A stretch of 64,000 nucleotides of DNA from Roseovarius gahaiensis (lineage in GTDB: Bacteria > Pseudomonadota > Alphaproteobacteria > Rhodobacterales > Rhodobacteraceae). The DNA is taken from assembly GCF_011601345.1 (NCBI RefSeq), contig NZ_JAAORB010000005.1:1-64000 (forward strand), given 5' to 3'. Both the position numbers and the translations under genes were made by a program. The notes beneath the pieces are model-generated. The model worked only from the letters and a program-made list of their open reading frames with translations. It was not told the DNA's origin and did no database searches. Below, in pieces: positions 58,841-63,566 of this stretch (position 1 is the first letter of the stretch; each line of letters opens with the position of its first letter).

Positions 58841-59485
58841 TCAGACCAGTCGCGTCAGAAACTCGGCCAGATCATCGGTGTGGTGGTGGATATGATCGGT
58901 TGGCAAGGCCTCCGGGGACACATGTATCGTCCGCATTCCCAAGGCGTGCGGCGCACGCAGGTTGCGTGGATCATCCTCGAACATGGCGGCGCGCGCGGGC
59001 ATCAGCCCATCACGCTGGAATATCGCCTCGAACGCCGCTTGTTCGGGTTTGGGCCGATAACCTGCATGTTCGACGCCATAGACCGCATCAAAAAGCCCCG
59101 ACAGCCCGCGGCGGTCGATCACTTGTTCTGCATACGGGCCGCTGCCATTGGTGTAGACGATCTTGCGCCCCGGCAAACCATGGATGGCATTGCGCAGGTT
59201 GAGGTCGGGCAGCAACGCATCGAACGAAATATCATGCACCGCCACCAGATAGGGATCAGGATCAACGCCATGCTCGCGCATCAGCCCGGCAAGCGTGGTG
59301 CCATGTTGCCGCCAGTAGTGATCGCGCAAACGATCCGCTTCCACGTGGTCAACACGCAGCGCCGTCATGACGTATTGGGTCATGCGCTGTTCGATCTGAT
59401 CGAACAGCCGCACCTGTGGTGGATAAAGCGTGTTGTCCAAATCGAACACCCAGCTGTCCACATGATCAAAGTATTGCTTCGGCAT
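58841..59485 (-). CDS. HAD-family pyrimidine 5'-nucleotidase-like phosphatase
   Basis: A 214-residue HAD phosphatase of the subfamily with SDT1/PHM8-type pyrimidine 5'-nucleotidases. Motif 1 is WVFDLDNTLYPP (nucleophile Asp), motif 2 IVYTNGSG, and motif 4 MFEDDPRNL. Likely dephosphorylates a nucleotide or other phosphomonoester. It starts at the ATG at 59485, divergent from the GntR gene with 109 bases between. Confidence 0.9.
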   Translation of the reverse strand: MPKQYFDHVDSWVFDLDNTLYPPQVRLFDQIEQRMTQYVMTALRVDHVEADRLRDHYWRQHGTTLAGLMREHGVDPDPYLVAVHDISFDALLPDLNLRNAIHGLPGRKIVYTNGSGPYAEQVIDRRGLSGLFDAVYGVEHAGYRPKPEQAAFEAIFQRDGLMPARAAMFEDDPRNLRAPHALGMRTIHVSPEALPTDHIHHHTDDLAEFLTRLV

Positions 59486-59594: not shown

Positions 59595-60239
59595 ATGAAA
59601 ACGCCGCAAAAAGATGCCTACACGTTGATCCTCGAAGCGATCGACATCGGGCTTTACAAACCCGGCGATCGCTTGGTCGAAAGCGATCTTGCAGAACGCT
59701 TTGGCGTATCGCGGACCCCGATCCGAGAGGCTTTGCAACGCCTTGAGACGCAATCGCTGCTGGCCCGTGACGGTCGCAGCCTGATCGTCGCCTCATTGGA
59801 TCACAACCAACTGGCCGAGCTTTACGTTGTGCGCGCCGAGCTTGAGGGGTTGGCGGCCAACCTTGCCGCCCGCCATGCCACCGACGAAGAGGTGCGCGTA
59901 TTGCGCGATATGGTCGAGGATGACCGGGCGCTGCTGAACGACCCGCAGGCCATGGCACGGGCCAACCGACGCTTTCACAAGCAGATTCATCTTGCCTCGC
60001 ATAACCGGTTTTTGGTGCAACAACTGGATCTTGTGCATCGTTCGATGGCGTTGATGGCCACCACGTCGCTGGCCGCCCTTGGCCGCCCCGAGGATGCCTT
60101 GAAAGAGCATGACGCCATCGTCTCGGCGATCGAAGCGCGCGATGCGGCGGCTGCCGGCGAGGCTCTCAAGGCGCATATATCCAAGGCGTTCGTGACCCGG
60201 TTGAAGCTTGATTCAGGTGAGGTTTCCACCTTGGTCTGA
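59595..60239 (+). CDS. GntR-family regulator, FCD type
   Basis: A 214-residue repressor-type protein. Residues 1-70 are the winged helix (YKPGDRLVESDLAERFGVSR, TPIREALQRLETQSLL), and residues 80-210 the all-helical FCD ligand domain (ELYVVRAELEGLAANLAARH, NRRFHKQIHLASHNRFL, HDAIVSAIEARDAAAAGEAL), with His residues that bind a metal in this family. Ligand unknown. The ATG at 59595 has GGGACAGG eight bases upstream; a GTG two codons earlier is possible. Its end overlaps the end of the GT2 gene by 27 bases. Confidence 0.9.
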   Translation: MKTPQKDAYTLILEAIDIGLYKPGDRLVESDLAERFGVSRTPIREALQRLETQSLLARDGRSLIVASLDHNQLAELYVVRAELEGLAANLAARHATDEEVRVLRDMVEDDRALLNDPQAMARANRRFHKQIHLASHNRFLVQQLDLVHRSMALMATTSLAALGRPEDALKEHDAIVSAIEARDAAAAGEALKAHISKAFVTRLKLDSGEVSTLV

Positions 60240-62135
60240 CGCGGTGGTTATAGGCCGCGCCTCAGGGTTCAAAGACAGGCCATGCGTGGTCTTGTCCCAA
60301 AAGAACGGCTTAAGCACCAATTCGTAAAGCGCCTTGTAAGCGGCAATGGCCCCAAGCGGCGCGTAGACGTGCATGGTCGGCACCCATGGCAATAAATGGC
60401 TATGCCGCGGCCCCCGGACGGCGGCGGCGTGGATCACGATGTTGACCACCTCGACCATCAAAAACAGGCTTCCAAAAGCGACAAGCACCTCACGCGCCAG
60501 AACTGCGTCCAACGGATGTGGCAGACCGAACAAAACCAGCCAGAACGACCACAGGAACGGCGCCAAAACAAACTGCGACAAGGCGGTGATGAAATGCGCC
60601 TGAAATCCCCAGAATTTCCATGCGCCCAACTGGCGATACAGCAGCAGCGGGCGGCGCATATGCACCAAGTATGTCGTCATATATCCTTTCAGCCAGCGTG
60701 AGCGCTGCTTGATCCATGGCCACAGGCGGCAATTGGCCTCTTCGCCGGTGACCGTGTGCAGCATCTCGGTGCGGTAGCCATGCCGCGCCAGCCGAAAGCC
60801 CAAATCGGCATCCTCGGTCACGTTATGGGCGTCCCATCCGCCCAGTTTTTCCAAGGCGTCACGCCGGAAATACAGCGTTGTTCCGCCAAGCGGAATGGCA
60901 AACCCAAGCTGCGCCATTCCCGGCAAAATTATCCGGAACCACGTGGCGTATTCGATGGTGAAACAGCGCGCGAGCCAGTTCTGACGCGGGTTATAATAGT
61001 CAAGGATACCCTGCACACAGACCATATTGTCCGGAGCCTGTTGAAAGCGCCGCGCCACCGCCGTGATCTGATCGGGGTCGGGCGCATCTTCGGCATCGAA
61101 AATGCCGATGATATCGCCCCGACAGAAATCAAGCGCATAGTTCATCGCCCGCGGCTTGGTGCGCGGCTGACCATCCGGCACGACAACTGCCCTGATCCAT
61201 GGCGGAAGGTCGATTTGTGCCAAGGTCTGACGGGTCAGGTCGTCTTCCTCTTCAAGGACAAGCACAACATCCAGCAAGCATTTGGGATATGTCAGCCGTG
61301 AAAGCCGGGCAATCAGGTGGTGGGCGATTTCCGTCTCGCGGAACAGCGGCACCAAGACCGAAACTTTTGGCAATGGCACCCCGGCCTGCGGGGCCGGCGC
61401 CGATGGCAGCGCGGCGTCGCCTGTGGCCATCCGGGCAATGAAAGCTGCGGTTTTCATACCGGCGGAAATGATCAGCGTCAGGCTGGCCCATGCCACAAAC
61501 ACCCCGAACACGGCCACGGGAAACGCCAGTGAAAGCGCCAGCAATCCCGCCAGAAAAACCAAGGTAAAACCCAAGCGACGCCGGAAATTATCGCCCCATG
61601 TGCGACAGCTTTCCATGGCCGGAACGCGGTTTTGCGCGGCCTGTGTCAGGGTGTGTCGATACCGCTGCGCGATTGTGTCCTGCAACGCGGTGCGCGGTGC
61701 CAACAACACGCGCCTCTGTGTCGGGTCAGTCCCTTGCGGCAGGATATCCGCCACGTCAGACATTTGCATGGCACCATGGGTCAGAATGGCAGGCTGTCCG
61801 TCACGATCGGTGACGGGCAGAACGCCATGTCGGATCAACGGCTTGGGATCGGCTTGGCTTTGAAATTCGGGAAGGGTCTTCAAATCATCCGGTGACGCGG
61901 TGCGCGCGCCCAAACGTGCGGCATGGGCGGCAAGCAAAGACGTTTCATCACTCAGCCCTTCGGCTTGCAGGATGTCATCCAACGGCGCATCGCAATGGCG
62001 CTGCACGATCTGCGCAAGCTCTAGGTCCGACCGCGAGATCACGCCGCGTCGCACCAGATCGGTGCCGATGCTGGTTTTATCCGCTGCCGGGATACCACGG
62101 GGCACACCAAGCTGGCGCAGCTCTGAAATCCCCAT
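60213..62135 (-). CDS. GT2 glycosyltransferase with an N-terminal MshEN-like domain
   Basis: A 640-residue inner-membrane polysaccharide synthase. Residues about 20-150 resemble an MshEN (GspE N-terminal) domain: IGTDLVRRGVISRSDLELAQIV and LDDILQAEGLSDETSLLAAH form its two repeats. Helices lie at 188-240. The GT2 catalytic domain (255-490) has VSVLVPLFRE, the DxD-like DAED at 348-351, TEDAD at 440-444 and QRSRW at 477-481, the cellulose-synthase-type set. Further helices follow, and the C-terminus carries FFWDKTTHGLS. AAGGAGGG precedes the ATG. A CtrA-type site lies 70 bases upstream. Product polymer unknown. Confidence 0.88.
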   Translation of the reverse strand: MGISELRQLGVPRGIPAADKTSIGTDLVRRGVISRSDLELAQIVQRHCDAPLDDILQAEGLSDETSLLAAHAARLGARTASPDDLKTLPEFQSQADPKPLIRHGVLPVTDRDGQPAILTHGAMQMSDVADILPQGTDPTQRRVLLAPRTALQDTIAQRYRHTLTQAAQNRVPAMESCRTWGDNFRRRLGFTLVFLAGLLALSLAFPVAVFGVFVAWASLTLIISAGMKTAAFIARMATGDAALPSAPAPQAGVPLPKVSVLVPLFRETEIAHHLIARLSRLTYPKCLLDVVLVLEEEDDLTRQTLAQIDLPPWIRAVVVPDGQPRTKPRAMNYALDFCRGDIIGIFDAEDAPDPDQITAVARRFQQAPDNMVCVQGILDYYNPRQNWLARCFTIEYATWFRIILPGMAQLGFAIPLGGTTLYFRRDALEKLGGWDAHNVTEDADLGFRLARHGYRTEMLHTVTGEEANCRLWPWIKQRSRWLKGYMTTYLVHMRRPLLLYRQLGAWKFWGFQAHFITALSQFVLAPFLWSFWLVLFGLPHPLDAVLAREVLVAFGSLFLMVEVVNIVIHAAAVRGPRHSHLLPWVPTMHVYAPLGAIAAYKALYELVLKPFFWDKTTHGLSLNPEARPITTASDQGGNLT

Positions 62136-62204
62136 GTGTCCCTCCTTGCCCTGATTGCCTGTTCAACAATGGGCAAGGAAGGTTAACCATCGGTAAATTA
62201 AAGG

Positions 62205-62219
62205 TTAACAAGAGGTTAA
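62205..62219 (-). promoter_or_regulatory. CtrA-type site upstream of the GT2 gene
   Basis: TTAACAAGAGGTTAA: two TTAA half-sites with exactly seven bases between. On the minus strand it extends to TTAA-N7-TTAAC, the full CtrA consensus in the direction of the GT2 gene, whose start is 70 bases away. Two more TTAA elements lie at 62183 and 62198. Confidence 0.65.
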
Positions 62220-62229
62220 AGCGAGCAGT

Positions 62230-63378
62230 TTAGCCCGCCATCGAGGCCGCAAACCGCTCGAACAAGTAAAAGCTGTCTTGCGGGCCGGGGCTTGCTTCGG
62301 GGTGGTGCTGCACGGAAAATACCGGGCGATCCGTCATCCGCAATCCGCAATTTGATCCGTCAAACAGCGAGACATGGGTTTCCATCACGCCTTGGGGCAA
62401 ACTCTGGCTGTCGACGGCAAAACCGTGATTCATCGAGGTAATTTCGACCTTGCCGGTCTCAATATCCTTGACCGGATGGTTCGCCCCATGATGGCCGTGG
62501 TTCATCTTGACGGTCTTTGCACCAAGCGCCAAGGCCAGCATTTGATGGCCCAGACAAATGCCGAACATCGGCAACCCCTTGTCCAGAACGCCGCTGATCA
62601 TCGGAACGGCATATGCGCCGGTTGCCGCCGGGTCGCCCGGACCGTTCGACAGAAAAACCCCGTCGGGGTTAAGGGCCAGCACATCCTCGGCCGTGGCCGT
62701 GGCGGGCAAGACCGTCACATCACACCCTGCGCTTGCCAGACAGCGTAGGATATTGCGCTTTGCCCCGTAATCAATCGCCACAACCTTATGCTTGGCGTCG
62801 GTCTGTTTGACGTACCCTTCGGGCCACGCCCAGCGCATTTCATCCCACCGATAGGATTGTGCACAGGTCACGCGACGCGCCAAATCCATGCCTTCCAAGC
62901 CTGCAAAGGCCCGTGCCTTTTCGACCAGAGCGGCCGTATCGAAATTACCTTCGGGATCGTGGGCCAGCGCCACATGCGGCGCGCCCTGCTGACGGATCGC
63001 GCGGGTCAGGCGGCGGGTATCGACGCCGCCGATTGCAATGCGCCCGCGCTTGGCCATCCAGTCAGCCAGCGTTTCGGTTGCCCGCCAGTTGCTGGGGTCC
63101 GTCGGATCCCATTTCACGACCATGCCTTCGGCCACCGGTTCGGCGGTTTCGTCATCATCGGGGTTCACACCAACATTGCCGATATGCGGGAAGGTGAATG
63201 TCACCACTTGCCCTGCATAAGACGGGTCGGTCATGATTTCCTGATAGCCGGTCATCGCGGTGTTGAAACACAGCTCGGCGGTGGTGTCGCCGACCGCGCC
63301 AAAGCCTTTGCCGTAAAACAACGTGCCGTCGGCCAAGGCCAAGCAGGCGGTCGGTCGGTCTTGGGTCGCGTGGGCCAT
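62230..63378 (-). CDS. carA: Carbamoyl-phosphate synthase small subunit
   Basis: The 382-residue glutaminase subunit supplies ammonia to CarB for carbamoyl phosphate, used in arginine and pyrimidine synthesis. N-terminal domain: LALADGTLFYGKGFGA, ELCFNTAMTGYQEIMTDPSY. C-terminal amidotransferase: VAIDYGAKRNILRCL, SNGPGDPAATG, catalytic Cys in MFGICLGHQML, and His/Glu in FSVQHHPEASPGP. The start at 63378 has CGGAGA upstream; the longer frame was rejected. carB is not adjacent, as is common in this order. Confidence 0.97.
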   Translation of the reverse strand: MAHATQDRPTACLALADGTLFYGKGFGAVGDTTAELCFNTAMTGYQEIMTDPSYAGQVVTFTFPHIGNVGVNPDDDETAEPVAEGMVVKWDPTDPSNWRATETLADWMAKRGRIAIGGVDTRRLTRAIRQQGAPHVALAHDPEGNFDTAALVEKARAFAGLEGMDLARRVTCAQSYRWDEMRWAWPEGYVKQTDAKHKVVAIDYGAKRNILRCLASAGCDVTVLPATATAEDVLALNPDGVFLSNGPGDPAATGAYAVPMISGVLDKGLPMFGICLGHQMLALALGAKTVKMNHGHHGANHPVKDIETGKVEITSMNHGFAVDSQSLPQGVMETHVSLFDGSNCGLRMTDRPVFSVQHHPEASPGPQDSFYLFERFAASMAG

Positions 63379-63566
63379 GGGACGAGTCTCCGGGTGTGGG
63401 CAAATTGGCGGATATGTATGAGCCTGCCCCGGTCGGGTCAAGGGACAAGATGAGCACGCCGCAAGGCCACAAAACAAGGCCATCGCGCACACCGTAAACC
63501 GGTTGTCAGAAAGATGCTAGTTCTGTAGGGTTCACGGCTTGTGACCACAGCATGGACTAAACCAGA

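Follow-up and report, generated by a model that had tools for sequence, protein, structure and literature searches.

Locus and gene product

The stretch of DNA analysed here (the window) comprises 64,000 nucleotides of Roseovarius gahaiensis (contig NZ_JAAORB010000005.1, positions 1 to 64,000). It carries a gene for a membrane glycosyltransferase of family 2 (GT2), hereafter the synthase, which combines the catalytic domain with an N-terminal domain of the MshEN type, the type that binds cyclic di-GMP (c-di-GMP) in MshE, and which is preceded by a putative CtrA site (Table 1). The start codon is the ATG at 62135, with an in-frame stop codon 30 bases 5' of it. The synthase is the single match in its own genome at E <= 1e-5, and among named relatives the closest is that of Roseovarius pacificus, at 79% identity.

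Table 1. Features of the synthase locus (window coordinates)
Feature	Positions	Strand	Basis
MshEN-GT2 membrane glycosyltransferase gene, 640 amino acids (aa)	60213..62135	-	Open reading frame list, Pfam, NCBIfam
GT2 catalytic domain, residues about 256-483; D347/D350, TED 440-442, QRSRW 477-481	60687..61370	-	Pfam, orthologue alignment, fold searches
Two predicted transmembrane (TM) helices, residues about 192-233, between MshEN and GT	61437..61562	-	Hydropathy; model helices 178-204, 206-238
N-terminal MshEN-type domain, residues about 22-160	61656..62072	-	NfrB profile, family profiles, model helix/strand order
Repeat I, residues 22-45 (SIGTDLVRRGVISRSDLELAQIVQ); in MshE numbering R9S and L29Q, with Gly and Gln retained	62001..62072	-	
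Repeat II, residues 51-74 (PLDDILQAEGLSDETSLLAAHAAR); in MshE numbering R38P, G40D, L58H and Q61R	61914..61985	-	
CtrA-type site TTAACCTCTTGTTAAC (TTAAC-N5-GTTAAC)	62204..62219	-	Sequence; pattern conserved in 108/130 orthologues
Overlapping one-mismatch site TTAACCTTTAATTTA; makes three half-sites in 11-bp steps	62194..62208	-	Read by eye
carA, conserved upstream neighbour, outside the system	62230..63492	-	Pfam, NCBIfam, neighbourhood comparison

Relatives were counted at E <= 1e-60 in a family sample of 149 Rhodobacteraceae genomes, each from another genus, and were present in 135 of them. We fetched 130 orthologue loci, the window's own included, and aligned 116 orthologues for residue counts. 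The initial annotation, made from the sequence alone, had described a GT2 synthase with D, TED and QRSRW motifs, and this description holds: the Pfam GT2 matches (residues 256-483) are far over their cut-offs, and D298, D347, D350, T440, E441, Q477, R480 and W481 are identical in all 116 orthologues, with D442 in 115. The catalytic residues of the family are therefore invariant or nearly so, and the full processive-type GT2 set (D, D(x)D, TED, QxxRW) is present, every residue being found in 115 or 116 of the 116 proteins. Among NCBIfam models the GT part resembles PgaC, BcsA, EpsU and other synthases, all below cut-off. Both the structure model and hydropathy place two TM helices before the GT domain and more after it; since the first two separate the MshEN and GT domains, both domains would lie in the cytosol.

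Modelling without an alignment gave a mean predicted local distance difference test score (pLDDT) of 46, and modelling with 77 aligned relatives gave 91.7. In fold searches with the latter model, the highest Z score was for the mannosyltransferase PcManGT (Z 29.7, root-mean-square deviation 3.7, 338 residues aligned), and the folds of BcsA cellulose synthase and the hyaluronan synthases matched from about residue 199 on (Z 18.8-26.2) at 12-21% identity. The likeness to BcsA thus concerns the fold of the GT and TM region; unlike BcsA, the window protein has no PilZ domain detectable with Pfam. The PcManGT match, together with the absence of an exporter or modifying gene adjoining the synthase in the window (carA lies before it and a convergent GntR/FCD regulator after it), would suit a non-polymerase that transfers sugars singly to a lipid or other carrier. 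We consider such an enzyme unlikely in view of the QRSRW motif, the BcsA and hyaluronan synthase folds and the arrangement of TM helices around the GT domain. The preferred reading is that an inner-membrane GT2 synthase uses nucleotide sugars to build a glycan of the surface or periplasm, as its motifs and fold suggest. A beta-glucan had been suggested, for which we found no evidence either way, as there are no adjoining partner genes and the closest folds include those of cellulose, hyaluronan and mannosyl transferases alike. The mixed-linkage beta-glucan synthase BgsA of Sinorhizobium, an alphaproteobacterial glycosyltransferase of the cellulose synthase type that is activated by c-di-GMP (PMC5567048), is likened here by description and not by sequence.

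A conserved CtrA-type site precedes the synthase

The exact TTAA-N7-TTAA copy TTAACctcttGTTAAC noted at first annotation was confirmed; it occupies 62205-62219, points toward the gene and lies 70 bases from the ATG. It begins at -84 relative to the start codon and is the one copy in the window, compared with 0.09 expected. The third half-site contributed by the overlapping one-mismatch site is not general, with a downstream one in 7 and an upstream one in 7 of the 108 orthologues that carry an exact site.

Those 108 were found by searching the region from -200 to +30 of the start codon in the 130 orthologues. The 22 others include 16 with a one-mismatch site, whereas shuffles of these 22 average 0.92 and reach at most 3. 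Changing the spacing to 3-6 or 8-12 yielded only 0-5 of 130 orthologues, dinucleotide shuffles gave a mean of 0.32 of 130 (maximum, 2), and the rest of the same loci held 5 sites in 884,569 bases. The consensus derived from the sites reads TTAACC-N5-TTAACC, two half-sites in direct orientation at an 11-bp step, and the columns flanking it are near background. Taking the site nearest -68 in each case, the median start of the site is 63 bases 5' of the start codon, and 84 of the 108 fall within -90 to -50. A second set of 80 named loci, with species partly shared with the first set, carried an exact site in 70. As judged from these patterns, a CtrA-type site is retained in more than 100 genera of Rhodobacteraceae. 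The own genome of the window encodes CtrA (432 bits, against an NF045991 cut-off of 350), and CtrA was found at E <= 1e-60 in 133 of the 135 family genomes carrying the synthase. CtrA-type control of the synthase promoter is strongly supported by this conservation, and this part of the initial annotation now stands on firmer ground than the sequence alone could have given it.

The position of the site is also compatible with characterized CtrA promoters. Counted from the last base of the site, positions +13 and +14 favour A (frequencies, 0.53 and 0.60). In the CtrA-dependent fla2 promoters of Rhodobacter sphaeroides, where the site lies near -35, an A is invariant at -11 and transcription starts 23-24 nucleotides past the site (PMC6180460); according to where the boundary is set, this A falls 12-14 bases past the site, a matching distance. 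Unlike the synthase promoter, the fla2 promoters drive flagellar genes. The earlier suggestion that the synthase is controlled by the cell cycle does not follow from a CtrA site, as CtrA of Dinoroseobacter shibae is tied to other gene sets: the D. shibae papers (PMC6473078 among them) link it to flagella and to gene transfer agent-associated, Tad pilus, competence and quorum-sensing genes. A literature search by title and start of abstract found no paper treating the synthase gene, which could still be listed in the CtrA regulon papers on R. sphaeroides (2020) or Rhodobacter capsulatus (2010) or in supplements. No word starting with "glycosyl" occurs in the main text of either of two D. shibae CtrA papers.

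A further exact TTAA-N7-TTAA in the own genome (L142:2001, G000:C12:48698) starts 53 bases 5' of a frame that is itself followed by a TsaE-like one, the genes being named by eye. It may mark another CtrA target.

The MshEN-type domain and loss of c-di-GMP contact residues

Taken alone, the window protein scores below the curated MshEN cut-offs (Pfam, 14.7 bits against 23.1; NF053729, 20.1 against 38), and the sensor part of the NCBIfam NfrB profile (480-617) matches its residues 20-159 below cut-off. The family as a whole shows clear homology to MshEN. A profile built from the window protein and 77 relatives, unselected for MshEN, matched PilF (1.3e-29), PilB (7.3e-16) and MshE (5htl; 2.2e-11) in the PDB, and a profile enriched for high MshEN scores matched PilF at 7.6e-34 and MshE at 1.5e-12. 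Among the 27 members of the enriched set, PF05157 was found at E <= 0.01 in 25, NF053729 in 22 and the NCBIfam NfrB model in 24. The N-terminal MshEN-like domain with two repeats that had first been annotated is thus borne out. The 24-5-24 layout of the repeats is present, and 5 is the top-scoring spacing in 94 of 116 orthologues. The confident whole-protein model agrees: it has helices at 23-29, 35-48, 52-58 and 64-75 followed by an alpha/beta part to 158, the helix and strand order described for MshE (PMC5013675). An MshEN fold of the window protein is therefore supported by the family profiles and by the modelled helix and strand order. The Foldseek and VIA rows neither support nor exclude MshEN, since the GT and TM part accounts for those shown. 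The repeats and the four helices with an alpha/beta part are shared with MshE (PDB 5htl) and the MshEN domains of PilF and PilB, which, unlike the window protein, join MshEN to an ATPase rather than to a glycosyltransferase. No other MshEN match was found in the own genome at E <= 1. Outside the family, 10 of 25 loci reach at least 19 of 22 on the repeat pattern, three of them 22 (these loci having no shuffle control); because such distant relatives also score high, the MshEN-GT fusion is probably old.

We called a domain intact when it retained both glycines and the six hydrophobic contact residues of MshE. Contact residues were intact in 46 of 116 orthologues and not in the other 70; in a second alignment, 36 of 78 rows were intact. 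The window protein is not among the intact members, owing to G40D, L29Q and L58H. The missing Arg of the first repeat (S22) had been seen at first annotation, where the repeats were called degenerate; repeat II is worse than noted then, with P51, D53 in place of Gly, H71 and R74. Proline at the Arg position counts little, as it is common across the synthase family and permitted by the relaxed MshEN motif (PMC5013675). The second glycine is replaced by D or E in all of L181-L187, titled Roseovarius, and in L188.

Because the second Gly, two Leu, one Gln and both Arg positions are lost, the window protein probably has little or no affinity for c-di-GMP. Its changes R9S, L29Q, R38P, G40D, L58H and Q61R in combination resemble those of the non-binding XpsE, given by Wang et al. 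as G11V, I19R, L29R, R38G, G40L, L54H, L58C and Q61V (PMC5013675). The c-di-GMP sensing proposed initially is thus unsupported for this protein, and this part of the annotation is weakened. A window protein that is transcribed under CtrA and remains able to bind c-di-GMP, which would then switch it on, is in our view distinctly improbable, even though the fold is kept, repeat I keeps its glycine and glutamine, and the own genome yields 5 matches to GGDEF and none to PilZ. In MshE, changes at Arg9, Asp12 or Gln32 cut affinity at most about fivefold, but the change of any single conserved hydrophobic residue costs more than tenfold (PMC5013675). Killing by N4 was lost with NfrB G491L and partly lost with G519S (PMC8669472); we take G519 as the second motif glycine, the one lost here.

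The CtrA-type site is about as frequent in front of intact (40 of 46) as of decayed (60 of 70) orthologues, and the catalytic residues are near-invariant, indicating that promoter site and catalysis are conserved and the ligand pocket is not. Decay was not associated with few GGDEF proteins (mean of 4.0 in intact and 4.6 in decayed, P = 0.07, the opposite direction), nor was an intact domain significantly associated with absence of PilZ (39 of 46 intact and 51 of 70 decayed without PilZ, P = 0.17). The intact/decayed label changes 18 times on a quick tree, of which well-supported branches force only 3.

Proposed regulation of the synthase

The nearest characterized protein is NfrB of Escherichia coli, a synthase that makes the N4 glycan receptor and is activated by c-di-GMP (PMC8669469, PMC8669472). 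Like NfrB, the window protein is a membrane GT2 with DxD, TED and QxxRW motifs and MshEN in one chain. The order is reversed: in NfrB the GT domain is N-terminal and MshEN C-terminal, whereas in the window protein MshEN (22-160) precedes GT (256-483). The nfrBA-ybcH operon supplies an outer-membrane protein, whereas the window synthase follows carA, and no nfrA-like pore gene is among its direct neighbours (nfrA was not sought elsewhere in the genome).

We propose, with a probability of about 0.62, that the gene encodes a glycan synthase under CtrA whose ancestral c-di-GMP gate has decayed in the Roseovarius-like lineage of the window. CtrA bound near -35 at the TTAACC direct repeat would activate the promoter, a step for which the comparative evidence is strong. 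In the ancestral enzyme, c-di-GMP binding by the N-terminal MshEN domain would have gated the GT domain in the manner of NfrB. Intact members would still be gated in this way, whereas the window species would not. With the pocket decayed, control in the window lineage would probably be mainly transcriptional through CtrA, and the MshEN fold may persist in a structural role or to serve another partner.

Several observations weigh against this proposal. Six of the 130 orthologues lack a site even when one mismatch is allowed; the best alignment of five of them with the window protein does not begin before residue 146, and the sixth (L079) is full length. No site was found at any of the 25 loci outside the family (start codons being uncertain in truncated copies), and the site was therefore probably gained within this family. 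In the own genome TTAA-N7-TTAA is not enriched, with 13 sites compared with 21 for the backwards control, so that the case for CtrA rests on conservation across genomes and not on a single match. The MshEN motif score of the window protein (16 of 22) lies inside the range of shuffled N-termini (mean, 13.6; maximum, 18). Finally, genome G006 keeps two overlapping sites before its synthase (L088), and only the C-terminal half of CtrA was seen there (model positions 119-224 in a 129-aa frame, G006:C58:48175-48492), a full CtrA not being found.

The sites kept in G006 would be explained if the TTAACC direct repeat were bound by another regulator of the OmpR or Crp/Fnr type, a possibility that we rate as very improbable. 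The Fnr dyad is inverted, unlike the direct repeat with its 11-bp step. Although the Dnr/Fnr site of D. shibae has the same TTAAC half-site (PMC7232146), the consensus is the published CtrA motif TTAA-N7-TTAA (PMC6180460), and the window copy has the form TTAAC-N5-GTTAAC (PMC7232146). CenR was also considered as the binder and was dropped; it uses TGA-N8-TGA (PMC9275681).

CtrA and c-di-GMP across the family

GGDEF matches were present in 141 of the 149 family genomes and PilZ matches in 33. The authors of a D. shibae study likewise report that they identified no gene with a PilZ domain (PMC6473078). As many as 108 of the 141 GGDEF-bearing genomes are without a PilZ match and 103 of these carry the synthase, which makes the conserved MshEN synthase a candidate c-di-GMP receptor. 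It is also a candidate for a CtrA regulon common to the family. The many lineages with a decayed pocket behind an unchanged promoter are natural mutants in which MshEN function can be studied.

Synthase and CtrA tend to be present or lost together (both in 133 genomes, synthase only in 2, CtrA only in 6 and neither in 8; Fisher P = 2.5e-8). Eight genomes (G014, G029, G033, G059, G090, G102, G109 and G136) lack the synthase, CtrA (E <= 1e-60) and GGDEF together, and none of them passes the NF045991 cut-off. carA is present in seven of the eight, at only 56-57% identity in three and at 78% in G109. The joint loss is suggestive and is confounded by ancestry, since the double losers are these eight GGDEF-less genomes, three with divergent carA.

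In D. shibae, rising c-di-GMP has been proposed to turn CckA against CtrA (PMC6473078 among the D. shibae papers). More tentatively, and on balance we think it rather unlikely, the synthase could be a core CtrA-driven output joining the CtrA and c-di-GMP networks as a two-key timer for a surface glycan. CtrA would make the enzyme, c-di-GMP would activate it later, and many lineages, including Roseovarius, would have lost the second key. If so, the synthase would be a main c-di-GMP receptor where PilZ is missing.

Gene neighbourhood and distribution

In 126 of the 130 fetched orthologues, carA lies 5' of the synthase on the same strand, and a relative of the convergent GntR regulator lies 3' in 115. 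Among 337 genomes drawn across the class, 43 had a relative at E <= 1e-40, five of them in the family, the own genome included. A second, more divergent synthase copy (36-43% identity) occurs in G013, G088, G107 and G118. In the window, the HAD protein at 58841-59485 (minus strand) exceeds the TIGR01993 cut-off (pyrimidine 5'-nucleotidase).
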